From the NCBI GenBank assembly GCA_018656645.1, contig JABHZL010000034.1, positions 1 to 64,000 on the forward strand: a stretch of DNA of 64,000 nucleotides, in the 5' to 3' direction. Position numbers and translations under genes: made by a program. This document shows, piece after piece, positions 7,193 to 46,379 of the stretch (the first letter of the stretch is position 1; each line of letters opens with the position of its first letter). This DNA is from Phycisphaerae bacterium. Its GTDB lineage: Bacteria; Planctomycetota; Phycisphaerae; Phycisphaerales; SM1A02. The notes below the pieces were generated by a model. That model had not been told where the DNA came from. It searched no databases and saw nothing but the letters and a program-made list of their open reading frames with translations.

Positions 7193-7607
7193 TTTCAAAC
7201 CTGCTTCATCACATAAAACACAGTTATTGATTGCTGCATTGATGTGGACACTTGTCGGATTTGGCTTGTTAGGTTTTGGGTTGAAGTGGTTGCTTCAATC
7301 AAGAACAGAATGGGTATTTTTATTACTGCTTGGCGTTTTACTTATTGGGGTCACAAAAGGCGTATTTATGTTACGTAAATCTGCCTTGCGTGCTATCAAT
7401 CGAATCAAAAACCGCGGTGATGGCACTTGTGTCTTCGGAGTATTTTCATTATGGCAATGGATGTTGGTTGGAGTCATGATTACAGGTGGTCGCTTGTTAC
7501 GAATGAGTGGCTTGCCTGATGAAATTTTAGGAACCCTCTACGCAGCAATTGGTATCGCGCTGTTCATTGGATCAGTTGCTACTTGGTCTGCGTGGCGTCA
7601 CTCGTGA
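7179..7607 (+). CDS. small multi-pass membrane protein, unknown function
   Basis: This is about 142 aa, with four predicted membrane helices: LLIAALMWTLVGFGLLGFG, WVFLLLLGVLLIGVTKGVF, LWQWMLVGVMITGGRLL, and ILGTLYAAIGIALFIGS. I do not recognise the family. The start is uncertain: GTG at 7143 lies inside the previous gene, and TTG at 7179 gives a short basic N-terminus before helix 1. No ribosome site helps. It follows the transglutaminase/hydrolase gene with overlap, so the two probably act together. Its 3' end overlaps the convergent secretin frame by 10 bases. Confidence 0.6.
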   Translation: MNYLNFKPASSHKTQLLIAALMWTLVGFGLLGFGLKWLLQSRTEWVFLLLLGVLLIGVTKGVFMLRKSALRAINRIKNRGDGTCVFGVFSLWQWMLVGVMITGGRLLRMSGLPDEILGTLYAAIGIALFIGSVATWSAWRHS

Positions 7608-10270
7608 AGTGAAGATTTAATCGCAGGATCATCAATCGCTTCTTCAAGTTGATCTAAGCCTTGCTCGATTGCTTGGATTGTTGCACCGTAATAATGTTCT
7701 GTTTGATAGAAATACTTTGCCACGTCTTCATCAATGATGTGCACTTGTTTTGGATCAATATCAGGGACCATGATGTACTGCCCAACATGAAACTGATCAA
7801 GCGCGAGAGACTTGGCACCATTATTAAGTTCAACAAGATGTTTGAGCGCAATTGCTCGTCTTAGACGGATTAAATCTTCCGCGTCATGCAACACAATAGT
7901 GTGCCGAGCGTTACCAGCGGGAGTGTCTTGGTTTAATGTCCATACTAAATTCTTCCAAGCAGATCGATCTTCGCAAACAACAGTTTGCACATCTGGAACA
8001 GCTTGGCCGTCTGCGAAGGAAATCGCGATTGCAGTGCCTTGGTTCTTTAAAAAGAACTTGTTTGCATCTCGGCTACCAGAAGAATTGGCTAAGACTCGTT
8101 CAATAAACTCAACACCCATGCCACCATTTTGTTCTGTTCCAAAGATTGCAATGCGTGATGCTGGGATTGCTTCATCAAGATCGAGTCGTTTTGTTATTTC
8201 ATAGACCATTCTTGTCACAAGAATGGATTCTCCAGGAAAGTGATTGTCTGCAAATCGTGCAAAAGCTGGGTTTGATTTAAGTTGGTAATTATTCTTGATT
8301 GCATTTTCTGCAAGCGCGCGATAATGTTGTAATGGTTCGTTTTTCTCTAAGAACGTAAGGTCAAATACGTCGTCTTGTTTAATGCGGTAAGAATCTCTGA
8401 ATAAATCATTCCCCGCACTGTCAAATCTTGGGTCATCCTTAGGCATTGCACTAAGAATGCTGTCGTTATCAGGAAGAACATGCGGTGTGAGAACAATGAT
8501 TACTTCAGTTTTGCTTGAAGTAGTTCTTTCGGATTGAAAAAGTCCACCTATCAAAGGAAGGTCACCAAGAAGAGGAACTTTGTCGTGAATAGTGTGGTGT
8601 TCTTTGTTGACAAGACCGCCGATGATGAATGGTGTGTCATTTGGAATTCGTCCATATGTTTGCACACGTCTACTTGAAATCGTGGGGGCTGTTGCGAGCA
8701 ACTTGTCACTCGAATCACGGATTTCTAAATCAGCACCTGGAACAGTTGACGAAACAATTGTGTCAATTAACATGCTGACTTCGTCGCCATTTTCAGAAAT
8801 ACGTGGACGAACATTAAGCATAATGCCCGTTGGCAAATACTTAAAGTTGAAAGAGAGCATGTCTGCGTTGTTGATTCCGGCAGTGCTTGTTGCAATTGGA
8901 ATGTCTTGTCCAACACGAATGGTTGACTGGCGATTGTTCAGTGTCAAAACGCTTGGTCGTGAAAGGATCTCAGCTTTTCCGTCTCGTATGAGTGCACGTA
9001 AATTGACATCAAGGATCCAAGAATTGGGATTGCTAAATGGGCGGCTTAGGTCTAAATCCAAAAGGGAGAGCGCGAGAGAATCATTGTCGGTTCCCGCATT
9101 GGATTTGCCAGCATCAACAGTGAAAAGGTTTGGTGTATCAGTCAAATTCCAATCTATGCCAATATCTTTGAGGCCGTCTTCATTAATTTCAAGGACCATT
9201 CCCTCAATAAAAATTTGTCTAGCGGGACGATCGATTTGCTCATCAAGTATTTGTTTTACCTCACTAAAGTGTTCTGGATGCGCAGCATCAAACATTACAA
9301 TGAGTTGTGTTGTTGGTGAAGCCACTGTATTTGTAAAGAGGTTGCTTGCGGTATTGGGAACCATCGTGAGTCCAAAAGCACCGCCTGCGACTGAGCCACC
9401 CACGAGCCCCGTACCTTCTGAAGCCGGATCGGGAACAAGTGCAACATAAGGCAATTTATTCCACTCAACTTTGTCGGGGAGTTCTGAAGGTTTATTAAAT
9501 GTCGTAATACCAAAACCATTGAGTAGTTCAATAGCTGAAGGAGCATCAACATAACTCAATTGGATGACTTCTGACCATAAATCACGAATCGTTAGGTTCT
9601 CTCGTGTTTGCGTAAGTGTTGTGAGTGATTCAGCAACAAATCCTTCAGCGGTTTTGACATCTTCGTTTGGAGTAACGATTCCATTCTCAATTTGCAAGCC
9701 TTGTGCCCATAGTTGATGTGGTTGTGATGCGTACGTTTTGTAACCAAACCGAATGATTTTTGTAACTCCATCGCTTTTATGTGCAATAGAGTGAACCTCA
9801 ACAACGCCATCTGGTGGTACAGGTAGAACGCCATCAAGTGTAGCAACCGATGACTTGTAACCATGGTTCGTTGAAAAACGTGTTGCGACAAGATCAACTA
9901 ATTCTACAATTTCGGTTGGATTTATCGTACTAAGTTGTATGTAGAGATCAACGGGGGATGTTTGAACAGTTTCTGTGACGAGGTCAGCAATTTCTTCTGG
10001 CGTAATTTCTTTTTGTTCAAGAGGAACTGGTTCCTCTGCCAAAGTAACATGATCAATTGTTTTTGATGTTGCTTTGTCAATTGCAATTGCCAATGCTTCA
10101 AGATCTACGGGTTCTTCGCTGTCAATAATAATACCTGTGGAGGTCGGTCGCTCCATTTCTAGCATGCCAGTTGAAGTTGTGCTTGAACATCCACCAAGGA
10201 GACCTGAAATGCAAAGTATGGTGCCTGCTAAAAGACCTAGATTCGTATTTTTTGCTGCTGGATGTTTCAT
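7598..10270 (-). other. possible internal start of the lipoprotein secretin within the fusion
   Basis: ATG at 10270 begins MKHPAAKNTN, followed by a hydrophobic stretch and LLGGC. That is a complete type II signal peptide, so 890 residues could be made as a separate outer-membrane secretin. No good Shine-Dalgarno sequence is visible before it (GACGAACACCCC). The ABC part ends at a natural-looking C-terminus just before this Met. Whether cells make one polyprotein, two proteins or both cannot be told from sequence. Confidence 0.6.
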
Positions 10271-11971
10271 GGGGTGTTCGTCGTTGCCAATGATAGTTTT
10301 ATGTTCTAAAGTCAGTACTCTATGAACGAGTTGCATGAGTGCAGGATCGTGTGTCACTATTATGACGGTTCTGCCCGCCATGTGTTCAAGGACATCTTTG
10401 ATGATCTGTATGGCGGCCTCAGATTCGATTGAGGCGGTGGTTTCATCAATAATGAGGGTTTGTGGCTGCCGAACGAGCGCCCTTGCTAGATTGATGCGTT
10501 GTTTTTGGCCATGGGATAATTCTCCACCTTTATCACCGATCCTCGTGTCATACCCGTTTGGTAGTTGCTCGATAAAACTGTGTGCACCTGTAAGTTTGCA
10601 CGCATCAATGATTTCTAGCGTGGTAGCGCTTGGTCTTGCGTAACGAAGGTTGTCATAGATAGAAGCATTGAACAAAAACGCATCTTGAAACGCAACGCCA
10701 AACATGTCGCGTACATCTTGAAGTCGAATATCTTTGATATCGTGCCCCCCGATCGTAATCACACCCGAAGTTGGGTCATTAAAGCGGGGAAGCAAACTGA
10801 TGAACGTGCTTTTTCCACATCCACTTGGGCCTGTAATAACGACATGTTCTCCGGCATCAATTTGCAAGTTCGCTTTTTGTAAAATATTTTCTTCTCCGTC
10901 GAAGGCGAAAGAAACATTATGGAATTCAATTGGTCCAACTAGTTGTAATGTTTCCGTTCGTGTGCGCATGTCATATGAAATTTCGTCAACTGGTTCATCA
11001 AGCATTTCAAGAACGCGGTCGACACTTGCGGATGTTCTGGAAAAATGCCCAGTTCCACTGATAATTTCTAATACTGCGGGGTACAACATTCGCACGTACC
11101 AGAAGAACATGAGAAACGCACCAATTGTCATGCTTCCAGCATAGACTTCCCATGCGCCGTATCCGAGTAGGAGTATTGTGCCTACACCAACGAGTAAATC
11201 TGCAACAACTTTCTGGGCAAACTGAAAACGTTGTGTTTTAATTTGATCATCTCTACTTGCACGAATTGTTTGCAAGAACGATTCAGTTTCTCTACTCTCA
11301 GCAGAAAACCCTTTCACAACTTGAGCGCCTAGAAAAGTTTCAACAAGGTTGCCATGAGCTTCAGCTAAATGTTTTTGTGCGCGGTGGTGGCTGTCACGAA
11401 TGGGTAGGTAAAACTTTTTATAGGTCCATAAGTGGAGAGGAAGTACGATTGTACTTGCGAGTGCTAGTTTCCAGTTTACAACATATAAAAGGATAAGAAG
11501 AATTTGAAATTCGAGCGTATACCTAAGAAGTGTTGGCAACTTGTCTTGGATAAATGTTTGAATCCGAAAGGTGTCGTCCATCACCCGTGAGCTGACTTGT
11601 CCTGGACGGTTTGATTTATAAAAACTCATGCCTAGTTGCTGCATATGATTGAATAACCGTTGCCGCAAATCGAAGCAAACTTGTTCACTTACTCGAACCG
11701 ATATCATTCGGCTGATAAAGAACAGAACATTTCGTAACACGTAAATTGTGCAGAGTGAAAGCAGAATGATCCAGAGTAAATCCCAGCCGCCTTCTTTTGC
11801 AGAAAGTGCAGGAAAAACATCGTCAACAAGAAGTGAAAGCGCCCATGGCAAGACCATGTCAGCGAGTGCAAGAAATCCAACAAGGATCACAACCATCGTG
11901 ACCTGCCCACTCCATGGTCTAATCAATTGGCCAAAACTGCGTAAGCCATTGGTCTCTTTGTATGTACGCAT
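7598..11971 (-). CDS. ABC exporter fused in frame to a lipoprotein secretin
   Basis: This is one open frame of 1457 codons. Residues 1-310 are an MsbA-like six-helix exporter domain. The nucleotide-binding domain has Walker A GPSGCGKST near 381, Q-loop AFQDAF, signature LSHGQ (variant of LSGGQ), Walker B LIIDE and H-loop VTHD, and ends near 565. Met568 then opens a lipoprotein signal peptide with lipobox LLGGC (Cys595). The remainder is a secretin: a short-domain pair ending RQIFIEGMVLEI, the beta core with ILSRPSVLTLNN and VGQDIPI, GGLVNKE, VPLLGDLPLIGGLFQ, and EVIIVLTPHVL. About 270 further residues are unassigned. No stop codon separates the parts. ATG at 11971 has AGGA 8 bases upstream; ATG 11980 or TTG 11992 is also possible. 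It is divergent from the fucosidase gene. Confidence 0.8.
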   Translation of the reverse strand: MRTYKETNGLRSFGQLIRPWSGQVTMVVILVGFLALADMVLPWALSLLVDDVFPALSAKEGGWDLLWIILLSLCTIYVLRNVLFFISRMISVRVSEQVCFDLRQRLFNHMQQLGMSFYKSNRPGQVSSRVMDDTFRIQTFIQDKLPTLLRYTLEFQILLILLYVVNWKLALASTIVLPLHLWTYKKFYLPIRDSHHRAQKHLAEAHGNLVETFLGAQVVKGFSAESRETESFLQTIRASRDDQIKTQRFQFAQKVVADLLVGVGTILLLGYGAWEVYAGSMTIGAFLMFFWYVRMLYPAVLEIISGTGHFSRTSASVDRVLEMLDEPVDEISYDMRTRTETLQLVGPIEFHNVSFAFDGEENILQKANLQIDAGEHVVITGPSGCGKSTFISLLPRFNDPTSGVITIGGHDIKDIRLQDVRDMFGVAFQDAFLFNASIYDNLRYARPSATTLEIIDACKLTGAHSFIEQLPNGYDTRIGDKGGELSHGQKQRINLARALVRQPQTLIIDETTASIESEAAIQIIKDVLEHMAGRTVIIVTHDPALMQLVHRVLTLEHKTIIGNDEHPMKHPAAKNTNLGLLAGTILCISGLLGGCSSTTSTGMLEMERPTSTGIIIDSEEPVDLEALAIAIDKATSKTIDHVTLAEEPVPLEQKEITPEEIADLVTETVQTSPVDLYIQLSTINPTEIVELVDLVATRFSTNHGYKSSVATLDGVLPVPPDGVVEVHSIAHKSDGVTKIIRFGYKTYASQPHQLWAQGLQIENGIVTPNEDVKTAEGFVAESLTTLTQTRENLTIRDLWSEVIQLSYVDAPSAIELLNGFGITTFNKPSELPDKVEWNKLPYVALVPDPASEGTGLVGGSVAGGAFGLTMVPNTASNLFTNTVASPTTQLIVMFDAAHPEHFSEVKQILDEQIDRPARQIFIEGMVLEINEDGLKDIGIDWNLTDTPNLFTVDAGKSNAGTDNDSLALSLLDLDLSRPFSNPNSWILDVNLRALIRDGKAEILSRPSVLTLNNRQSTIRVGQDIPIATSTAGINNADMLSFNFKYLPTGIMLNVRPRISENGDEVSMLIDTIVSSTVPGADLEIRDSSDKLLATAPTISSRRVQTYGRIPNDTPFIIGGLVNKEHHTIHDKVPLLGDLPLIGGLFQSERTTSSKTEVIIVLTPHVLPDNDSILSAMPKDDPRFDSAGNDLFRDSYRIKQDDVFDLTFLEKNEPLQHYRALAENAIKNNYQLKSNPAFARFADNHFPGESILVTRMVYEITKRLDLDEAIPASRIAIFGTEQNGGMGVEFIERVLANSSGSRDANKFFLKNQGTAIAISFADGQAVPDVQTVVCEDRSAWKNLVWTLNQDTPAGNARHTIVLHDAEDLIRLRRAIALKHLVELNNGAKSLALDQFHVGQYIMVPDIDPKQVHIIDEDVAKYFYQTEHYYGATIQAIEQGLDQLEEAIDDPAIKSSLHE

Positions 11972-12042
11972 AGTTCGCATCCTATCAAGCAATACGCTTT
12001 ATTACCATTTAATTACTATTTACACCGCCTTATTTCGATACT

Positions 12043-17086: not shown

Positions 17087-18517
17087 ATGGCAAATATAAA
17101 ATCTAAAAAAAAGCTCGGTGTATTCGTTCTTGCGATGATGAACGTCGCAGTTGTGATGAGCTTGCGGGGGTTACCTATGATGGCAAAAGAGGGGATGACG
17201 ATGGTCTTTTACCTTCTCTTTGCATCGATTCTCTTTCTCGTTCCAGTTTCTCTTGTCTCTGCAGAACTCGCAACAGGTTGGCCAAAAAATGGCGGTGTCT
17301 ATATATGGGTAAAGGAAGCATTTGGGTCAAAATTGGGGTTTACGGCAATTTGGTTGCAATGGATTCAAAACGTTATTTGGTATCCAACAGTTCTTGTCTT
17401 TGCAGCAGGTGCACTTGCGTACCTTTTTGTAGACCCAACCCTTGCAGAAAATAAATTTTTTAGTATTATTGTTATTTTGGTTGTCTACTGGGGCGCAACG
17501 TTTGTCAACTTACGTGGCGTCGCATCTGCAGGCTGGCTGACAACCGCAGGCGTGATTGGTGGAACAATTTTGCCTGGTTTGCTCATAATTATCCTTGGTC
17601 TCTGTTGGTGGTTTGGCGGAAATCCTATTGCGTTTGATGCAACAGTGACGGCAACAGCGTGTTTGCCAGACTTTGGTAATATAAATTCACTCGCATTTCT
17701 TGGAGGGATTGTGCTCCTTTTCGCTGGGATGGAAGTGGGATCAGTGCACGTGAACGAATTAGGTAATCCAAAGAAACAATTTCCAGCAGCAATTTTTATC
17801 GCGATGTTTGTGATCATTGGTATTTTTACACTTGGTTCATTTGCAGTTGCTGCTGTTCTTCCAGCAGACGAAATTAGTTTAACAGCTGGCATCATGCAGG
17901 CGCTTCGTGACTTCCTTAATGAGTTTCACGCACTTTGGCTTCTGCCAATTCTTGGATTCCTCATTGCGTTTGGAGCAATTGGTGGCGTAACTGCGTGGAT
18001 TGCTGGTCCAAGTCGCGGTTTACTTGCGACGGCGAGCAAGGGTGAACTTCCACCAATCCTTCAAAAAGTAAACAAGAGCGGCATTCAGGTCAACATTCTA
18101 ATGGTCCAAGGGGCGATCGTTACGTTGATTTCACTTGTGTATTTGTTGATGCCAAATGTAAGTAGTGCGTTCTTCCTGCTCACTGCGTTGACTGCCTGTC
18201 TCTATTTGTTTATGTATATGTTGCTATTTGCAACAGCAATTAAACTTCGGTTTACTAAACCCGATGTGCCACGTGCGTTCAAAGTGCCAGGTGGCAATGT
18301 GGGCATGATTCTCCTTGCAGGCGTTGGGTTGCTCGCCGTGATTTATGCATACATCATCCTCTTCTTTCCACCAAGTGATCTTGCTGTTGGAAGCCCAACA
18401 TTTTATGTAGCGTTTCTTGTGATTGGAAACCTTATCTTTATTTTATTACCAATGATTATCAACCACTTCAAGAAACCATCTTGGGTGGCAAAAGGACCAT
18501 CAGACAATGCTTCATGA
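17087..18517 (+). CDS. gadC: glutamate/GABA antiporter, APC superfamily
   Basis: This is a 476-aa inner-membrane protein with about 12 helices. Family features are [13 protein letters not shown] at helix 1, [21 protein letters not shown], and [17 protein letters not shown]. The gene overlaps glutamate decarboxylase by 11 bases, which supports the role: it would import glutamate in exchange for GABA and so remove cytosolic protons in acid. An AGGG ribosome site precedes ATG 17087. A different amino acid antiport is possible if judged on the transporter alone. Confidence 0.88.
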
Positions 18518-19898
18518 TAAAAACAATGAACGGCTAGAAGAACTCATCGCTCCCACGTATGGATCTGAATATACGTCGAAGATACTTCCAAAATATAAAA
18601 TGGCGGAAACCAATATGCCCGCTCGCGATGCATATCGAATGGTGCATGATGAATTGATGCTAGATGGCAATTCTCGCCAAAACCTTGCGACGTTCTGTAC
18701 AACATTTGTTGAACCCGAAGTGCAACAGTTGATGACAGATTGTGTTGATAAAAATATGATTGACAAGGACGAATATCCACAGACTGCAGAGATAGAAAAC
18801 CGCTGCGTGCACATCCTTGCTGATTTGTGGAATTCTCCAGATGCGGAGACAACACTTGGTTGTTCAACGACTGGTTCAAGTGAAGCAGCGATGCTTGGCG
18901 GCATGGCCTTAAAGTGGAAGTGGCGTGAAAAAATGAAAGCCGCCGGAAAACCAACGGATAAGCCAAACATGATTTGCGGTCCTGTGCAAATATGTTGGCA
19001 TAAGTTTGCAAGGTATTGGGACATCGAACTTCGAGAAATTCCCATGGAAGGCGATCGTTTAATTATGACTGCAGAAGAAGTGATTAAGCGATGCGATGAA
19101 AACACAATCGGTGTTGTGCCAACTTTAGGCGTGACTTTTACTGGTCAATACGAACCAGTCAAAGAAGTAAGTGATGCGCTTGATAAGTTCCAAGAGGAAA
19201 CAGGAATAGACATTCCAATTCATGTAGATGGTGCGAGCGGTGCGTTCATTGCCCCGTTTATTCAAGCAGATTTAGAATGGGATTTCCGTTTGCCTCGTGT
19301 AAAATCAATCAACGCTTCGGGTCACAAATTCGGTTTAGCGCCTCTTGGTGTTGGCTGGGCACTTTGGCGTAGCAAAGATGACCTTCCAGAAGATCTTATT
19401 TTTAATGTAAATTACCTCGGAGGTAACATGCCAACTTTTGCGCTCAACTTCTCTCGCCCCGGCGGTGAAATTGTTGCGCAATATTACAACTTTATTAGAC
19501 TTGGCAAAACCGGATATCGTGAAGTCCACACATCTTGTCAAGAGATTGCAAAATATCTTGCAGATGAAATTAGCAAGATGGAGCCTTTTGAAATTATTTA
19601 CAACGGCGAAGGTGGTATCCTCGCGATGTGCTGGAAATTTAAAGATGGCCAGAAGTATAACTTCACACTTTACGATTTCGCCGATCGCCTTCGATCTCGA
19701 GGTTGGCTAGTTCCAGCATATTCAATGCCAGCGCACCGTGAGGATCTTGTGATTCAACGCATTCTTGTACGCCACGGCATGAGTATGGACTTGGCGGATT
19801 TGCTGCTTGAAGATATGCGACGAGCACTCGAGCACTTCGACGTGCATCCTGTCCAAGTACCACTAAGCGAAGAAGAAGCCGGTGGGTTTAAACACTAA
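18507..19898 (+). CDS. gadB: glutamate decarboxylase
   Basis: This is a 463-aa PLP enzyme that converts glutamate to GABA and CO2 while consuming a proton. The PLP lysine is Lys274 in [14 protein letters not shown]. Other family marks are [30 protein letters not shown] and the N-terminal [20 protein letters not shown]. The length matches E. coli GadB. It is translated from a start inside the 3' end of gadC, so the two form an operon. No obvious terminator follows; 44 bases separate it from the convergent pentapeptide gene. Confidence 0.95.
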
Positions 19899-26345: not shown

Positions 26346-29192
26346 ATGACATCGATCAATAGACACTTCTTGGGATGGGACAAGCCGTTCCTGTTTGAGA
26401 CAGCCAACTGGTTGCAAGAGCATTACTTGCAAGACCAACTTGGAAACAATGAAAACCTCCTTGTCCTTGTTTCGGGGCAAGAAGTTGGAAGAAGGCTACA
26501 GCGTATTTTGATCGGCAATGCCGCAAAAAGGAACAGCGCTGTAGTCCTACCTATGATCGAAACGACGTCGCAATGCTTTGATCATTTGATGGGGAACAGC
26601 GATCAAATCGCAGATCAAGCCACAACGCTCATGGCAACGGCGAGTGTGCTTCGGAAGATGCGCGGTGAGGAACTTCTCGAAATTATTGGAAATCGACATC
26701 CTGAACTTGATGATGTGCCTGCTTGGGTTGCACTTGCAGAACAAGCTTGCACTGCTATGGCAACACTCTCTGGTGGAGGTTTAACTCCACAAAGAACATC
26801 GTGGCCAGAAGCGGCGCAGGTGATGTTGACGGAAAGTGCTGAAAAAAGATTTGATACATTAGAGTTGATTCAACAACGAGTAAAAAATCTACTACTTGAA
26901 AATGGGTTATGTCTTCTTGAAACGAAGAGAATGGAGCTTCTTGATGAGGAACAGCAGGTTCAACTTCAAGGTATAGATCACGTTGTCCTCGTTGGGACTA
27001 CAGATATTTCAGGAATGGTGTTAAAAACCATTGATCGTATAAGCAAGGCTGGCGTGCCTGTTGATTCTCTTATTCGTGCTCCGAAGTCAGAGTCGGAGGG
27101 ATTCGACGAGTATGGGTGTGTTGATACTGACTATTGGTCAAAAGCGATGATTGACATTTCTGAGGATCGTATTCAAGTTGCAGGTTCACCAAGTAGTCAA
27201 GCAGCATCCGTTATCCGAGAACTTTCACTCGTCAAGAATACATATTCTCCCGACCAAATCATCGTGGCGTCGACTGATGAGTCGTTGGTTCCAATTATTC
27301 AACGGCATCTTTCTGGCCATGACATCAAAAATAGATTCGCAGGTGGAAAATCTTTGCTTGAAACACCAGTGGCTCGCTTGTTAAAAGCGGTCGCACAACT
27401 TGTACAAACGCAAACTTTTTCAGCATACGCAGCTCTTGTCAGGCATCCTGATTTATATTCATTATTAGATGTACAGGAATCAACGTTGAAAGCACTCGAT
27501 CAATATTCAATGGAATTCGTTCCGGAGTTTGTTGATCCCGATGGATGGGTTGTACCCAAAAGGCAGTTTAAATCCATCGAAGCGTTGGTTTCTCTGCACA
27601 AGCGTACATTTGATTTCATTAGAATTTGTAGTTCGTTGCAAACCGAACGGGCGGAGTGCGCAACGTGTGCAAGTGTTGTCCGTTCATTGTTGTTGAAAGT
27701 TTATGGTGATGAAACACTTGATCGAAGCGACCCCAAGTTTGTTTCATTACAACAAATATTTAACGCACTTGACCGCTTTGATGCAATGCCAAGTAATGTC
27801 TCAGAACAACTGGGTCTGCTAGATGCCGCAACACTCATTGGTCTGTTGTTGAGTTCTGTTGAAACATCAACTATTCCTGAATACCCAAATCCTGAAGCAA
27901 TTGAAACAGTCGGATGGCTTGAAGCAATGGCGGCTGATGCTCCATGTTTGATTGTTGTTGGAATGAGTGCAGATTTAGTTGGTGGGAATAATCCAGGAGA
28001 CGTGTTTTTTCCTGATTCATTACGGGGAGCGCTCGGGTTAGAAACTATTGACAGAAAGCTTGCCCGCGATGCACATGCAATGAAAGCAATGCAAAGTATG
28101 CGTGCAGACGATGGAAAACTTACTTGGATAGTCGCACGTAAAAATACAGATGGTGACCCGTTGACACCAAGCCCGTTACTCCTTCGTTGTGAAGATGGAA
28201 AAGTTCTTGCAGAAAGAGCGAAACGACTCGTTGTTTCACTAGAACGTGAAGAGCCTGAAGTGCCAAAACAATTTACTCCCAAGAGTGAAGGGGCTGGCAT
28301 TCCAATCCCTCGCGTAGATGCATACGAATTTGAACCGGTTGAAAGAGTTTCGGTGACTGCGTTTAAAGATTACATAGCATGTCCTTATCGATTTTGGCTA
28401 AAACATGTCCTTCGTCTGAAAGTTGCAGAAGATGGTGGTACTGAATTGGATCCAAAGCTCTTCGGTGGATTAGTGCACAAGACTGTTGAAAAGTTTGGAC
28501 TTGATATATCTGTACGTGACTCAGGTGAAGAACAAGAAATTAAAAAGGCACTCTCTTCCTACTTAGATGAAGTGGTGCAAGAAATGTTTGGAAATAATGT
28601 TTCAAGTGCAATAGAGGTGCAAGTAGAACTTGCACGATTTCGCCTTGGTGAAGTTGCAAAACATCAGGCAGTGAGTGCCAAAGAAGGGTGGCGGATTCTT
28701 TGCAGTGAAAAGAAGTTGTCCAAAGAAATCATTATCGAAGGTAAACCGATGGTGGTTAGTGGTGTGATTGACCGAGTCGACTTGCACGCAGATGGACGAA
28801 TTCGAGTTTTAGATTATAAAACGGGTGGCGCTACTGCCAACGAAGTGCACTTTAAGAAACGCGACGCACAGTGGGTAGATCTGCAATTGCCTTTGTACAG
28901 GATGTTACTTTCTAATATAAAAGAGCTTGAAGGTAAAGACACGAGTGAAGAAAATGTGTCCTTGGGGTACTTTCGAATTGGCGATCAAGAAACGACAACA
29001 GGAATTAATTTACTCGATCTGCCAGATGAAGCCATGGCGACAGTAGATGATGTCATTACTGCAATCATGTGTGATATTGCAAATAGTAAGTTCGGAGAAG
29101 CGCCTACTGATCCCGCTCCAAAATACAGCGACGATTTTGCATGGATTTGTCAAGACAATAGTATTACTGAAGAATCAGAGGGGGATGATTGA
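26346..29192 (+). CDS. addB: AddB-like helicase-nuclease subunit
   Basis: This is a 948-aa protein with an N-terminal helicase-like region that lacks a clear P-loop (VSGQEVGRRL in its place) and a C-terminal PD-(D/E)XK nuclease (about 680-900): SVTAFKDYIACPYRFWLKHVL, GGLVHKTVEKFG, and the catalytic RVLDYKTGG. It should pair with the next gene in a RecBCD-type complex that resects double-strand breaks. Many AddB proteins carry a 4Fe-4S cluster held by four Cys. Here only the Cys of ACPYRFW and one C-terminal Cys are seen, so the cluster is probably absent. ATG 26346 is the first good start. addA follows almost without a gap. Confidence 0.82.
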   Translation: MTSINRHFLGWDKPFLFETANWLQEHYLQDQLGNNENLLVLVSGQEVGRRLQRILIGNAAKRNSAVVLPMIETTSQCFDHLMGNSDQIADQATTLMATASVLRKMRGEELLEIIGNRHPELDDVPAWVALAEQACTAMATLSGGGLTPQRTSWPEAAQVMLTESAEKRFDTLELIQQRVKNLLLENGLCLLETKRMELLDEEQQVQLQGIDHVVLVGTTDISGMVLKTIDRISKAGVPVDSLIRAPKSESEGFDEYGCVDTDYWSKAMIDISEDRIQVAGSPSSQAASVIRELSLVKNTYSPDQIIVASTDESLVPIIQRHLSGHDIKNRFAGGKSLLETPVARLLKAVAQLVQTQTFSAYAALVRHPDLYSLLDVQESTLKALDQYSMEFVPEFVDPDGWVVPKRQFKSIEALVSLHKRTFDFIRICSSLQTERAECATCASVVRSLLLKVYGDETLDRSDPKFVSLQQIFNALDRFDAMPSNVSEQLGLLDAATLIGLLLSSVETSTIPEYPNPEAIETVGWLEAMAADAPCLIVVGMSADLVGGNNPGDVFFPDSLRGALGLETIDRKLARDAHAMKAMQSMRADDGKLTWIVARKNTDGDPLTPSPLLLRCEDGKVLAERAKRLVVSLEREEPEVPKQFTPKSEGAGIPIPRVDAYEFEPVERVSVTAFKDYIACPYRFWLKHVLRLKVAEDGGTELDPKLFGGLVHKTVEKFGLDISVRDSGEEQEIKKALSSYLDEVVQEMFGNNVSSAIEVQVELARFRLGEVAKHQAVSAKEGWRILCSEKKLSKEIIIEGKPMVVSGVIDRVDLHADGRIRVLDYKTGGATANEVHFKKRDAQWVDLQLPLYRMLLSNIKELEGKDTSEENVSLGYFRIGDQETTTGINLLDLPDEAMATVDDVITAIMCDIANSKFGEAPTDPAPKYSDDFAWICQDNSITEESEGDD

Positions 29193-29193
29193 G

Positions 29194-32100
29194 ATGATTG
29201 ACTTTAGAGAGTTTGAAATCATTGAAGCTTTGGCGGGTTCTGGGAAAACACAAGAACTCATGTTTCGTTTTTTGCGTTTGATGAAAAGCGGCGCAGATCC
29301 AAAAACAATTCTCGCAACGACCTTTAGCCGAAAGGCTGCTGGAGAAATTCGGGATCGCATAATTGAATCTTTGGCAAAAGCGGTTTTAGATACAGACGAA
29401 TTAGATTTGCTTATAAAACACGTGCCTGAAATTGAAGATGGTCAAGAAGGATGTGAATTGCTGCTTCGAGAGCTGTCATCATCGATGCACCGACTTAACA
29501 TCGGAACGATTGATAGCTTCTTCGTGAAGACTGCGCAGTATTTCAGTGATGCACTTGAGATGACTCCAGGATGGTCAATTTTGGATGAGGCACACGAAGA
29601 AGAAGTTTTTACTACTGCAGTTGTTGCGATGACAAAAGAGCACAAAAATACAAATCACTTTGCAAATTTGCTGCGTTGGAGTAAATCAGGGGCGAAGGTA
29701 CCAATTGGTAAAACGCTGAGTGAGATGCAACGGCAAGCGTATACATCAGTTCGGGACACCGATGCCTCAGCATGGTTGTGGGGGGAATCGTACCCGACAA
29801 TGTCGAATGATGATGTTGTTTCTGCAATACATTATCTTTCTACGATGAGTACAGATAAAAAATATCAAGCTAGTGATTTGTTGAAGGCGATTAAAAAATT
29901 GCAATGCAGAGATTGGAAGGCATTCGTAACGTCCGGCATGGCGTCGAAAGTTCTGGATAAAACGTACCAATATTACAAACAGGATATCGATCCCCACATC
30001 GTGGAAGCCTTGGAACCCCTTGTTGAACACGCTGTTGGTGTAATGGCAAATCGGTTGATTGCAAAAAACAAGGGAACGTACGAGCTCATGCACGATCTGA
30101 ACAAGTGCTGGATAGAAGCGAAACATGATCGTGGTTTATATTCGTTTGATGATGTGACATACAGGCTGAGTTTTATCAATGTGATGCAAAATCTCTCTGA
30201 ATTACAGTTCCGTTTGGATAATTCGATTGATCATCTGTTGATAGATGAGTTCCAAGATACTTCGCTTACGCAATGGAGTGTATTGAAGCCAATTATTGAT
30301 GAAATTTATCAATCAGAAAGTGACCGTTCACTTTTTGTTGTTGGTGATGTGAAGCAGAGTTTGTATGGTTTTCGTGGTGGAGAACCTGCACTTCTTCGGA
30401 CACTTCACAAACGACTTGATCACGCAGAAATTCGCAAACTTGATAAGAGTTGGCGGTGTTCTCCACCCGTACTCGATGCAGTAAATACCATTTTTGAAAA
30501 TGCACATGATGCAGGTCTATTGAAGGATCATTCGGAAGGTGCTGCTGAAAATTGGCAAGAGGATTTTATTCACCACGAATCAGCCAAACCAAACAGGCTG
30601 GGATATGCAGTTATTGAAACAGCAGGTGCTAACAATGAAGAATTAGAAGAAAAGAAATCTTCTTTAGCGCTTACTGTTGAGAAAGTTGTAGAGATCGTTT
30701 CTAACATTCACAAAAATGCTCCAAAAGCAGAGATTGGCATTTTGGTTCGTGGCAACACGAAGCAACAAATACAAAGGATTGTGAATGCACTAAGAACAAA
30801 TAAGGACCATCCTGTTCTTGCTGCGGAGTTTGGCGGGAATCCACTGACCGATTCGCCCGCTGTAACGGTTATTCTCTCTGCTTTGTTGATGGCCGATGAT
30901 CCGGGCAATACAACTGCACGCTTTCATGTCTGCAGTTCTCCGCTTGCTGCGCATCTTGAAATGAAATGGAATGGATCAGACAAAGAGTATGCAAGTGCGT
31001 GTAGAAAAATACGCAGGCGGTTAGTATCAAATGGGTATGCAGTTGTTGTTAGCGAATTTGCTGAGCAATTGATTGGTTCGGTAGATGAACGCGAGCGATT
31101 ACGCCTTTGGCAACTGATCGAACTCGCAGAATCAAAATCAGGTGATGTGGGACCATCTGGGGGATTGCGCCCATCAGAATTTGTGCAACTTGTGAAGGAA
31201 ACCCAAGTTCCTGACCCAGCATCATCTCTAGTGCAAGTCATGACTGTCCATAAATCAAAAGGGCTGTCGTTTGACGCGGTCGTAGTATGTGACTTAGACC
31301 AGCCAATTTGGAAGGCACCCAAGTTGATGGAAGTGCACGAGGATCCATGTGAACCTCCTGTTCACGTTGGCATGTATGCAAGTGAATATCTTGATTGTGC
31401 TATCCCAGAATATGAGCAGATGCGAGGTGAAATGCAATCACAGCAAGTCAATGACGCGCTTTGTTTGCTGTATGTTGCGATGACACGAGCGAAGCATGCG
31501 TTGCACATGGTGATTCCAAGTAGAACTTCAAAAAAACACTTGAAACGACTTGACGGATTGTTACTACAAATTATTGGGGAAGATCAAGCGCAAGAACCAG
31601 ACACAATTGTTTGGAAGGCAAAAGGCAGCAAACAAGATTGGTACTGTGAATTATCTGATTCGACCCACGCGGAAAAACCAAAAACAGTTGAACCATTCTC
31701 TTTGCTTCCTTCAAGTGATGACGAAGTTTTCCAAGGCCATGGCGTTGCTAGCAGCTCTCCATCAAGCTTAGAGGGTGGTGGAAAAGTGAAAATTTCAGAA
31801 AGGTTTGATGGAAAAACAAATACTAGTTTCAGTTGGGGAACAGTGACGCACTATTGGTTCGAGGAAATAGAGTGGCTTGGAGGAGTAACACCTTCAGTCG
31901 AGTCACTAGTGGCAAGTGCACCGAAGGAAGAGGCTGTGTTGCTTGGAGAGGAAAAACTTCGAGCTGCTGCTAAGAGCTTTGTTACAGCAATCGAGAGTGA
32001 GTCAATAAAAGCTTTGTTGACGAAACCTGAAGAGAACGTTGCAGTTTTCAATGAGCAAACGTTTGCACTACGTGTTGAGAAGGGCACTGATTTTGCTTCA

Positions 32101-32394
32101 GTTTCAATGAATGAATTGACAGATGTACGTGGATCAATTGATCGGCTAGTCGTCTATTACGACGAAGAGGGTAATCCAATTCGGGGCGAAGTAATTGATT
32201 GGAAAACGGATTCATTCGATGCCTCTTTGCGTGAAGAGAGGGTAGAGCACTACGCTCCACAATTAGCTTCTTATCGACTTGCAGCTTCACAGTTACTAGG
32301 AATCGATGCTAGAGAGATTTCAACGAAGTTGGTCTTTGTGAAGAACCATAAAATTGTACAACTTGATGAAAAAACCCATTTAACAGCCTCATAA
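29194..32394 (+). CDS. addA: AddA-like UvrD/RecB helicase-nuclease
   Basis: This 1066-aa SF1A helicase has Walker A ALAGSGKTQELM (about residue 10), motif Ia TTFSRKAAGEIRDRI, Walker B LLIDEFQDTS, motif III VVGDVKQSLYGFRGGEP, motif V MTVHKSKGLSFDAVVV and motif VI LLYVAMTRAKHAL. A C-terminal PD-(D/E)XK nuclease follows (RGEVIDWKTDSFD, HYAPQLASYRLA). Both nuclease sites of AddAB are therefore present. The start is placed at ATG 29194, two bases after the addB stop, with GAGGGGG as ribosome site; ATG 29185 overlaps addB and has that site too close. Confidence 0.9.
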   Translation: MIDFREFEIIEALAGSGKTQELMFRFLRLMKSGADPKTILATTFSRKAAGEIRDRIIESLAKAVLDTDELDLLIKHVPEIEDGQEGCELLLRELSSSMHRLNIGTIDSFFVKTAQYFSDALEMTPGWSILDEAHEEEVFTTAVVAMTKEHKNTNHFANLLRWSKSGAKVPIGKTLSEMQRQAYTSVRDTDASAWLWGESYPTMSNDDVVSAIHYLSTMSTDKKYQASDLLKAIKKLQCRDWKAFVTSGMASKVLDKTYQYYKQDIDPHIVEALEPLVEHAVGVMANRLIAKNKGTYELMHDLNKCWIEAKHDRGLYSFDDVTYRLSFINVMQNLSELQFRLDNSIDHLLIDEFQDTSLTQWSVLKPIIDEIYQSESDRSLFVVGDVKQSLYGFRGGEPALLRTLHKRLDHAEIRKLDKSWRCSPPVLDAVNTIFENAHDAGLLKDHSEGAAENWQEDFIHHESAKPNRLGYAVIETAGANNEELEEKKSSLALTVEKVVEIVSNIHKNAPKAEIGILVRGNTKQQIQRIVNALRTNKDHPVLAAEFGGNPLTDSPAVTVILSALLMADDPGNTTARFHVCSSPLAAHLEMKWNGSDKEYASACRKIRRRLVSNGYAVVVSEFAEQLIGSVDERERLRLWQLIELAESKSGDVGPSGGLRPSEFVQLVKETQVPDPASSLVQVMTVHKSKGLSFDAVVVCDLDQPIWKAPKLMEVHEDPCEPPVHVGMYASEYLDCAIPEYEQMRGEMQSQQVNDALCLLYVAMTRAKHALHMVIPSRTSKKHLKRLDGLLLQIIGEDQAQEPDTIVWKAKGSKQDWYCELSDSTHAEKPKTVEPFSLLPSSDDEVFQGHGVASSSPSSLEGGGKVKISERFDGKTNTSFSWGTVTHYWFEEIEWLGGVTPSVESLVASAPKEEAVLLGEEKLRAAAKSFVTAIESESIKALLTKPEENVAVFNEQTFALRVEKGTDFASVSMNELTDVRGSIDRLVVYYDEEGNPIRGEVIDWKTDSFDASLREERVEHYAPQLASYRLAASQLLGIDAREISTKLVFVKNHKIVQLDEKTHLTAS

Positions 32395-44252: not shown

Positions 44253-46379
44253 CTAATCCTCGAATGTAGTCGTGCCAAACTGTTCTTTCAAAGAACGAAT
44301 GCCTCTCTCATCGCCTATAACTGTGAGTTGATCATTTTCTTCTAGCAGTGTGCTGCCGCGAGGTACAACCATATGTCCTCTGCGATGTATCAACGCAACA
44401 AGGCATTCCTCTGGAAAACTCAAACTTTTAATAGGCAACCCAATAAGTGATTCTGTGGAAGTAGTTTTTCCTAAACGAATTGAGAGGAATCGGTCATCAC
44501 GAAGCAAAATTTCTTTCATTTCTTGATTAGTATTTGCAGAGAGCCATTTTGCCATGAACCCTTCTTTGTCAACGTGACCAGCAAGTTGTGCTAATAACCG
44601 AAGGTGCTGGGAGGGGTCATCTTCAGGACTGATAAGAAAGAAGATGGCATGGATTGACTGTTCTTCATGATGACCACCAAAAACATCGCCAACATCAATC
44701 ACAAGCCCGTCTTTTGATCGAGCAACTACCATGATCGACTGTTCAATACAAGGCAGTCGAAGGTGAGGCAGTGCAACACCACCAGTAACTGGAGTTGCAC
44801 CAACCTTTGTTCCGTGTAAAAATCCTTCAGAAAGATTTTCGGCAGTAACTGGAAGCAGGGCTGCAAGTTCCTCTGCAGCAAGAGTTGTAATATCTTCAAA
44901 AGTAGAACCGTGTGCTGCATCAATCACTCTTGCTTTAGCCACAATTTCATCAAATGGGTCGTGCGCTCGTAAGCCTTTTTCTTTGAGAATTTCTCTAAGT
45001 TCTGTATCGAGTGCTGCGAATCGATTTCGACCGAGCCGTTCAAAAACATGGTAAATAGCACCGTAGCGATCTACTCGGCTGCGGGCATAAAAGAAATACC
45101 AGAAAACGCCAACGGCAATTACACCAAGAGAGAAGAGAACTGGCAACCAACCCATAATGAAAATAATCCAAATGCACGCAATAGCTCCGAAGATTTGTAA
45201 CCATGGATAGAATGGCGCCCTGTATCCAGGATCATAGGAATCTAATTTTGTTTCTCTCATGACAACAACTGAAAGGCACAGTAAAGAGAACATTAGTAAT
45301 TGAAACGCACTTGCAAGTTTTGCTATTTTCAGTGGGTCAAGAAACAATATGATTAGTGTGATCAGTGCTGCAGAGACAGCTATTCCTAAAATTGGAGTTC
45401 CTTTGCTATCTACTTTTCGTAATGATGGTGGAAGTAAGTGATCCCTACTCATCGCAAGGGGATATCGTGAAGCACTAAGAATTCCTGCGTTTGCAACTGA
45501 GAGAAAGGCAAATATAGCAGCGGTTGCCATGATGTATAAGCCAACGTTTGAGCCAGTAATATCTGCTGCAACAGTAGATGCGGGTGTAAGATTTGTTTCA
45601 CCATTTGTAAATGAAACCGCTTCAGTACCACTGACCCCAATCATGACCAGGAGGCCAACGACATACACAACTACAGCAGTACCAATTGCTAGAAATAAAC
45701 CTAATGGCAAGTTCCGTTCAGGATTTTTAATTTCCCCTGCAACACTGATAACTTTCGTGACGCCTACATAACTAATGAACACCATGCCGGCAGTAGCAAA
45801 AATATCCTTCGGGCCACTACCGAAGAAATTGTCTAAATTCTTTGGTTCTATTTTTAGAGTCCCTGCACAGAGAAACCACGCCAATAGGCAGAGTAATGAT
45901 ACGACTAATATAATTTGGAATGATGTTGTTTTTTTGGCCCCAAGCATATTGAGACCACCGAAAAAAATAACTAGCCCAATTGCAATTACTGTATATAGCG
46001 ATTCGTCTGCGCCGCTAGGCAAGAAGAGTTGGATGTATGCGCCCATACCAACAAGAGCGAATGCAGTTTTTAATAGTAGGGCGAGCCAAATACCAAGACC
46101 GCCGATCGTGCCAACCATTGGGCCAAGACTTCTATCTAGGAAATAATATGCGCCACCGGATCTTGGCATCGCTGTTCCAAGTTCAATTTTACTGAGCATT
46201 GGAGGAATGAGTAAAAGCCCAGCGATGAGATATGCAAGTATGACTGCTGGTCCTGCAAGTTGGGTTGCAAAACTAGGGAGAAGGAAAAAACCGCTACTGA
46301 GCGTTGTTCCTGTTGCCAATGCAAATACAGCGAATAGCCCAAGACTTTTATTCGCTTTCTTGTATTTCGATTTTGCCAT
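44253..46379 (-). CDS. APC permease with C-terminal PTS EIIA-like and RCK-C domains
   Basis: This 708-aa protein begins with an amino acid permease of about 12 helices (residues 10-430: TGTTLSSGFFLLPSF, GGAYYFLDRSLGP, ISVAGEIKNPERNLP). A cytosolic linker leads to an EIIA-type-2 domain (about 480-620) with the phosphorylatable His539 in GVALPHLRLP, and then an RCK-C/TrkA-C domain (about 630-705: GLPIKSLSFPEECLVALIHR, LEENDQLTVIG). The transported substrate is unknown. The two tails suggest control by phosphorylation and by a nucleotide or ion ligand. A bidirectional terminator follows the stop. Confidence 0.88.
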   Translation of the reverse strand: MAKSKYKKANKSLGLFAVFALATGTTLSSGFFLLPSFATQLAGPAVILAYLIAGLLLIPPMLSKIELGTAMPRSGGAYYFLDRSLGPMVGTIGGLGIWLALLLKTAFALVGMGAYIQLFLPSGADESLYTVIAIGLVIFFGGLNMLGAKKTTSFQIILVVSLLCLLAWFLCAGTLKIEPKNLDNFFGSGPKDIFATAGMVFISYVGVTKVISVAGEIKNPERNLPLGLFLAIGTAVVVYVVGLLVMIGVSGTEAVSFTNGETNLTPASTVAADITGSNVGLYIMATAAIFAFLSVANAGILSASRYPLAMSRDHLLPPSLRKVDSKGTPILGIAVSAALITLIILFLDPLKIAKLASAFQLLMFSLLCLSVVVMRETKLDSYDPGYRAPFYPWLQIFGAIACIWIIFIMGWLPVLFSLGVIAVGVFWYFFYARSRVDRYGAIYHVFERLGRNRFAALDTELREILKEKGLRAHDPFDEIVAKARVIDAAHGSTFEDITTLAAEELAALLPVTAENLSEGFLHGTKVGATPVTGGVALPHLRLPCIEQSIMVVARSKDGLVIDVGDVFGGHHEEQSIHAIFFLISPEDDPSQHLRLLAQLAGHVDKEGFMAKWLSANTNQEMKEILLRDDRFLSIRLGKTTSTESLIGLPIKSLSFPEECLVALIHRRGHMVVPRGSTLLEENDQLTVIGDERGIRSLKEQFGTTTFED

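Follow-up and report, generated by a model that had tools for sequence, protein, structure and literature searches.

An ABC exporter and a secretin in one conserved open reading frame of Phycisphaerales: a predicted bacterial polyprotein

Introduction

Secretins are known from type II and type III secretion, type IV pili and filamentous phage, and are driven there by cytoplasmic assembly ATPases or by a growing fibre. For ABC exporters, the way out of the cell is a TolC-type channel. In HlyB–HlyD–TolC and MacAB–TolC, the ABC exporter powers export from diderm cells and is paired with an outer-membrane channel by way of a TolC-type trimer and a membrane fusion protein. A bacterial precedent for a polyprotein split by signal peptidase is FbcH, the cytochrome b/c1 polyprotein of Bradyrhizobium, in which two subunits of a membrane complex are encoded in one open reading frame (ORF) and separated at an internal signal.

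Here, we describe a gene in which an ABC exporter and a secretin share one frame. It was found in a Phycisphaerae contig, in the window (the whole stretch of 64,000 nucleotides that was analysed). No ABC–secretin fusion or pairing was reported in the literature searched, and an excerpt of a 2021 Chemical Reviews article (PMC8277102) contains no such pairing. The product is apparently a new kind of bacterial polyprotein.

Gene structure

On the minus strand, a frame with no internal stop codons ran from 11971 to 7598 through an ABC exporter, a lipoprotein signal and a secretin, and ended with a TGA at 7598–7600. Translation could start at a TTG at 11992 or at an ATG at 11971 (codon 8 from the TTG). 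The ATG was favoured because the orthologues of the genus begin at the equivalent Met in the genus alignment. The ORF comprised 1464 codons counted from the TTG; residue numbers (Met575, Cys602 and the Pfam ranges) follow this count, and seven is subtracted for numbering from the ATG. The features were as follows.

7598–11971, minus strand: fusion ORF with ABC exporter, internal lipoprotein signal and secretin (alternative start TTG 11992)
11087–11896, minus strand: ABC_membrane transmembrane domain, six-helix type-IV exporter fold (PF00664, residues 33–302, 2e-36)
10433–10882, minus strand: ABC nucleotide-binding domain, ABC_tran (PF00005, residues 371–520, 2e-30)
10190–10270, minus strand: junction, with a start-like Met (MKHP) followed by the internal type-II signal peptide
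10187–10189, minus strand: lipobox Cys (LLGG|C), where lipidation and cleavage by LspA are predicted
9431–9952, minus strand: secretin N-terminal periplasmic domains (AlphaFold blocks, pLDDT mostly 82–90, without Pfam match)
8474–8995, minus strand: Secretin beta-barrel domain (PF00263, residues 1000–1173, 8.7e-39)
7631–8392, minus strand: family-specific C-terminal extension of the secretin with conserved columns (pLDDT mostly 74–94, without Pfam match)

The initial annotation had placed both proteins in a single stop-free frame, which was borne out by re-reading the ORF and by the Pfam domains of both halves. Its placement of the secretin Met directly after the ABC C-terminus was also correct: the ABC half ended ...LTLEHKTIIGNDEHP, and Met575 (nt 10270), right behind this end, opened MKHPAAKNTNLGLLAGTILCISGLLGGC. 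The internal lipoprotein signal with lipobox LLGGC at Cys595 was found as described, with the Cys (nt 10189–10187) at position 602 in TTG numbering and 595 in ATG numbering. The hydrophobic 14-mer before the lipobox had a mean Kyte–Doolittle value of 2.11. AlphaFold modelled a short helix at the signal, with low confidence at the junction.

Exporter half

The complete set of catalytic motifs claimed for the ABC half was present, with Walker A GPSGCGKST, signature LSHGQ, Walker B LIIDE and H-loop THD, the last slightly outside the ABC_tran match. The motif positions corresponded to invariant alignment columns. With ABC_membrane followed by ABC_tran and the full motif set, this half is a type-IV half-transporter, as in MsbA, Sav1866 and ABCB1. 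It differs from these exporters in its signature, LS(H/R)G(Q/E) instead of LSGGQ, and in carrying a linker, a signal and a secretin at its C-terminus. The closest solved bacterial chain was Sav1866 (2.3e-89), and the AlphaFold model (mcbe818b9e74f) had long transmembrane helices in the exporter half (pLDDT mostly 80–94). No Pfam match to a C39 peptidase domain, as found in C39 bacteriocin exporters, was present in the fusion protein.

Some variation was seen among the relatives. At two loci (L101 and L104; genomes G390 and G281), the H-loop His was replaced (MITTNRD or MITSNRE, compared with MITHDP or MITHRP in the others), and the exporter of this genus may be ATPase-impaired. Genome G032 (L134, L135) had a second, stand-alone ABC copy, 47% identical to that of the window, in addition to a fusion cut by the contig end.

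Secretin half

The PF00263 barrel placed the C-terminal half in the secretin superfamily and was also present in 18 of 18 relatives, in which no other Pfam family matched the secretin half. Foldseek matched this half to PulD, GspD, InvG and PilQ, and it aligned to the solved GspD 6i1x (1.4e-36), although the alignment with solved GspD was confined to the barrel and the domain preceding it (profile 298–574). Since the first AlphaFold model had a pTM of 0.40, only domain-level matches were used. The score against the GspD equivalog TIGR02517 was 170 bits, below the cut-off of 351, and the full N0–N3 set of GspD ring domains was not recovered. GspE, GspF and GspG were not found beside the fusion, as judged by neighbour conservation between families, in which only the ABC was kept.

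The barrel and the preceding ring domain are common to this protein and GspD/PulD (also PilQ and InvG). An N-terminal export signal, as in GspD/PulD, is found in the separate-gene forms of the family. In contrast to GspD/PulD, the N-terminal domains are different, there is a distinct C-terminal extension and the locus has no conserved GspE/F/G neighbours. The sub-cut-off score and the unassigned N- and C-terminal domains indicate a secretin that is not the GspD of a type II system. Near the fusion of genome G058, a short separate ORF (L060, 5933–6169) repeated the secretin C-terminal domain with 43% identity.

Conservation of the fusion

A search for the secretin half in 61 related genomes returned open frames of approximately 1450–1730 amino acids in each of the 12 further members of the genus and in additional members of the family and the order. 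Mapping of both halves at the fetched loci showed that 41 genomes, belonging to families f1–f6, encode the ABC and the secretin in a single frame. They comprise every one of the 13 genomes sampled from the genus, along with 28 of other genera and families in the order. Among 400 sampled genomes of the order, 70 had this secretin, and it was fused in 41 of these. The fused families diverged to approximately 40% identity, and five fused loci were also present in named metagenome-assembled genomes (MAGs) from independent studies. Two loci were incomplete. In G051, the frame shifts within the ABC, after the transmembrane part and ahead of the ATPase part (L058, ~9262), which left only the ATPase half in frame with the secretin, and the fusion of G032 ran off the contig end inside the internal signal.

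In secretin trees, fused members were placed on both sides of the deepest split in the order, with five to six changes of state and an uncertain root. This pattern suggests that the fusion is old or arose repeatedly.

Predicted maturation

We consider it probable from the sequence data that the product is a polyprotein cut by LspA (by LepB in a sister clade) into an exporter and an outer-membrane secretin, made 1:1 and likely serving one route. One ribosome would synthesise a half-transporter ABC exporter with both termini in the cytosol and continue into a signal sequence, which SecYEG would insert N-in/C-out, so that the periplasm would receive the secretin as part of the same chain. In the clade of the window, Lgt would lipidate Cys602 (595 from the ATG) and LspA would cut in front of it. 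The exporter would thereby be set free, and the lipidated secretin would reach the outer membrane and form a multimeric channel. In the sister clade (f5 and f6), signal peptidase I would cut instead. The inner-membrane ATPase and the outer-membrane channel would thereby be synthesised 1:1 at one place. The initial annotation had proposed such a polyprotein, with signal peptidase II able to cut at Cys595. Its reading is partly supported, by the single polypeptide, the internal lipoprotein signal and the conserved fusion; the cut itself and a joint conduit of exporter and secretin are predictions.

As in FbcH, two proteins are encoded in a stop-free ORF with an internal signal predicted to be cleavable. 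FbcH belongs to a respiratory complex and is cut by signal peptidase I, whereas the present fusion joins a transporter to an outer-membrane channel and would be cut by LspA in one clade. It is unusual for a signal to be cleaved when it lies approximately 570 residues inside a multi-spanning protein, which counts against the proposed cutting.

Separate-gene relatives

Where the pair was not fused, the ABC gene usually lay directly upstream of the secretin gene, as in f10 (a different order), f2 (g70, g79) and f6 (g541). In f2, the ABC stop and the secretin start overlapped as ATGA (G324, G903, G855, G998) or TGATG (G364, G940, G826). The gene order was reversed in G054 and in the distant G689. 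An unlinked ABC was found in G825, and in G049, G232, G301 and G225 there was no ABC at the secretin locus. A genome search with the family ABC returned nothing above 400 bits in the latter four genomes or in G380 and G391. In families f20 and f23, the secretin was present without an ABC orthologue. The presence of the secretin without a linked ABC in some genomes indicates that the coupling is not obligatory, and genomes with the secretin alone show that the channel can also work otherwise.

These arrangements bear on a different explanation, by which the fusion serves co-expression only, replacing a stop/start overlap and fixing 1:1 synthesis of halves that act in different processes. The ATGA and TGATG overlaps and the secretins without ABC would fit this explanation. 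We nevertheless regard it as unlikely, because the two halves stay together in sequences as divergent as approximately 40% identity, are lost jointly and have no further neighbour that is conserved between families. Among the 61 relatives, 28 had both the ABC orthologue and the secretin (including G032), one had the secretin only and 32 had neither; orthologues were defined by scores of >500 bits, which separated cleanly from those of paralogues.

Internal signal and linker

A hydrophobic segment and a signal-peptidase site directly preceded the secretin in 41 of 41 fused proteins (counted by script, with G045 added by hand reading). The lipobox Cys had an equivalent in all 25 fused proteins of families f1–f4, the clade of the window, and a signal peptidase I site was present in all 16 of f5 and f6 (e.g. 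ATPALA|QD and EPAFA|QN). The signal at the start of separate-gene secretins matched that of their fused relatives in class. An LspA gene was present in the genome of the window (G000:C20, 2.1e-28). With a hydrophobic segment, a lipobox Cys and LspA, the secretin has the features of a bacterial lipoprotein, except that its signal is internal instead of N-terminal. The strongest sequence-based argument for selection on cleavage itself is that a cleavable site is retained although the clades differ in peptidase class.

If the chain were left uncut, a permanent ABC–transmembrane–secretin polypeptide would bridge the inner membrane and the periplasm and tether each secretin subunit to an exporter, in keeping with the unbroken frame and the added transmembrane-like segment. 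This arrangement seems improbable given the class-switching peptidase site in every fused protein and the existence of separate-gene relatives with ordinary N-terminal signals. Moreover, a 12–15-fold secretin ring would need an equal number of fixed half-exporters.

At the f5 and f6 sites, Gln was at +1 in 9 of 16 proteins (A|QD, A|QQ, A|QN, A|QE), resembling the Q-rule described for Bacteroidetes (PMC5837995). Examples of fused loci in these families are L039, L040, L101–L104, L122, L124 and L125.

The linker was in frame throughout and ranged from approximately 11 residues in the genus to approximately 80 in other families. Its dN/dS was 0.28–0.51 where dS was measurable, compared with 0.02–0.21 in the two domains; by this measure, the linker is under purifying selection. 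A chance open frame was rejected on the basis of the in-frame indels and the linker dN/dS below 1. Recoding or stop readthrough is superfluous, as no stop is present.

The ATG of the MKHP motif was conserved in all 13 members of the genus, and some secretin could therefore start internally there. That the secretin is made mainly from this Met575, with the fused product a by-product, is nonetheless very improbable. No Shine–Dalgarno-like motif preceded Met575, although such motifs were found for just 12 of 42 ORFs in the window. A Met in the linker was not conserved in other families, and an unfused ABC cannot be made, because no stop codon ends the ABC part. Six fused genes had no ATG between ABC and signal, and two of the fused genomes (G058, G416) had no ATG, GTG or TTG there; in these two, barring rarer start codons, the fused chain is the sole possible source of the secretin.

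The remaining alternatives are recent loss of a stop codon and a sequencing error such as a missing base, both raised by the initial annotation together with an ortholog search as a check, and an assembly error. They can be dismissed with near certainty: nothing in their favour was found beyond the G051 frameshift, which shows that single frameshifts occur in such assemblies, and the same fusion in 41 genomes of six families, including all 13 of the genus, in sequences diverging to approximately 40% identity and in independent MAGs, with no conserved stop between the halves, establishes the arrangement as real.

Proposed export route

Under the reading of a cleaved polyprotein, the exporter and the secretin most likely belong to one export route, as judged from their conserved pairing and fusion, on which the proposed conduit rests. 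Cleavage, outer-membrane targeting and a common substrate are what we infer. As in HlyB–HlyD–TolC and MacAB–TolC, the ABC exporter would be paired with an outer-membrane channel. In contrast to these type I systems, the partner is a secretin encoded within the same chain as the exporter, with no linked adaptor. The locus lacked the combination of membrane fusion protein and TolC-type channel of a type I system. No linked gene for a substrate or adaptor (membrane fusion protein) was found, which counts against the proposal, and the neighbours varied between families. By the lack of a conserved adaptor, the locus is not a type I system.

More tentatively, the pair may form a minimal secretion machine, in which a secretin would take the place of the TolC-type channel as recipient of the ABC substrate, all from one self-targeting gene product split by signal peptidase; we hold this to be possible, with the balance somewhat against it. 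If true, it would be a secretion route outside the numbered systems. Because one conserved gene carries both halves, a direct ABC-to-secretin route can be tested with that gene alone. The relatives provide a natural series of states, with separate genes, pairs overlapping at ATGA and finally the fused polyprotein. They also show an internal signal whose cleavage site persists through a change of peptidase class, in a probable polyprotein of a kind that is rare in bacteria, from a little-studied phylum.

Other observations

In six of the 13 genus genomes (L045, L047, L048, L050, L051, L053), a cluster lay upstream-adjacent to the fusion. It comprised a TolC-like protein, an HlyD-like adaptor, an ABC ATPase of its own and two MacB/FtsX-like permeases (named by eye). 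The cluster was apart from the fusion in G003 (moved, L054) and absent beside the copy in the window.

Three further loci were observed in the window. Overlapping ORFs at 26346–32394 encoded a PD-(D/E)XK nuclease protein and a UvrD helicase-nuclease, resembling AddAB. At 44253–46379, an amino-acid permease was fused to a PTS EIIA domain and a TrkA-C domain. A GadC-like antiporter adjoined a glutamate decarboxylase at 17087–19898, forming an acid-resistance pair in the small genome (~2 Mb) of this member of the Phycisphaerales.
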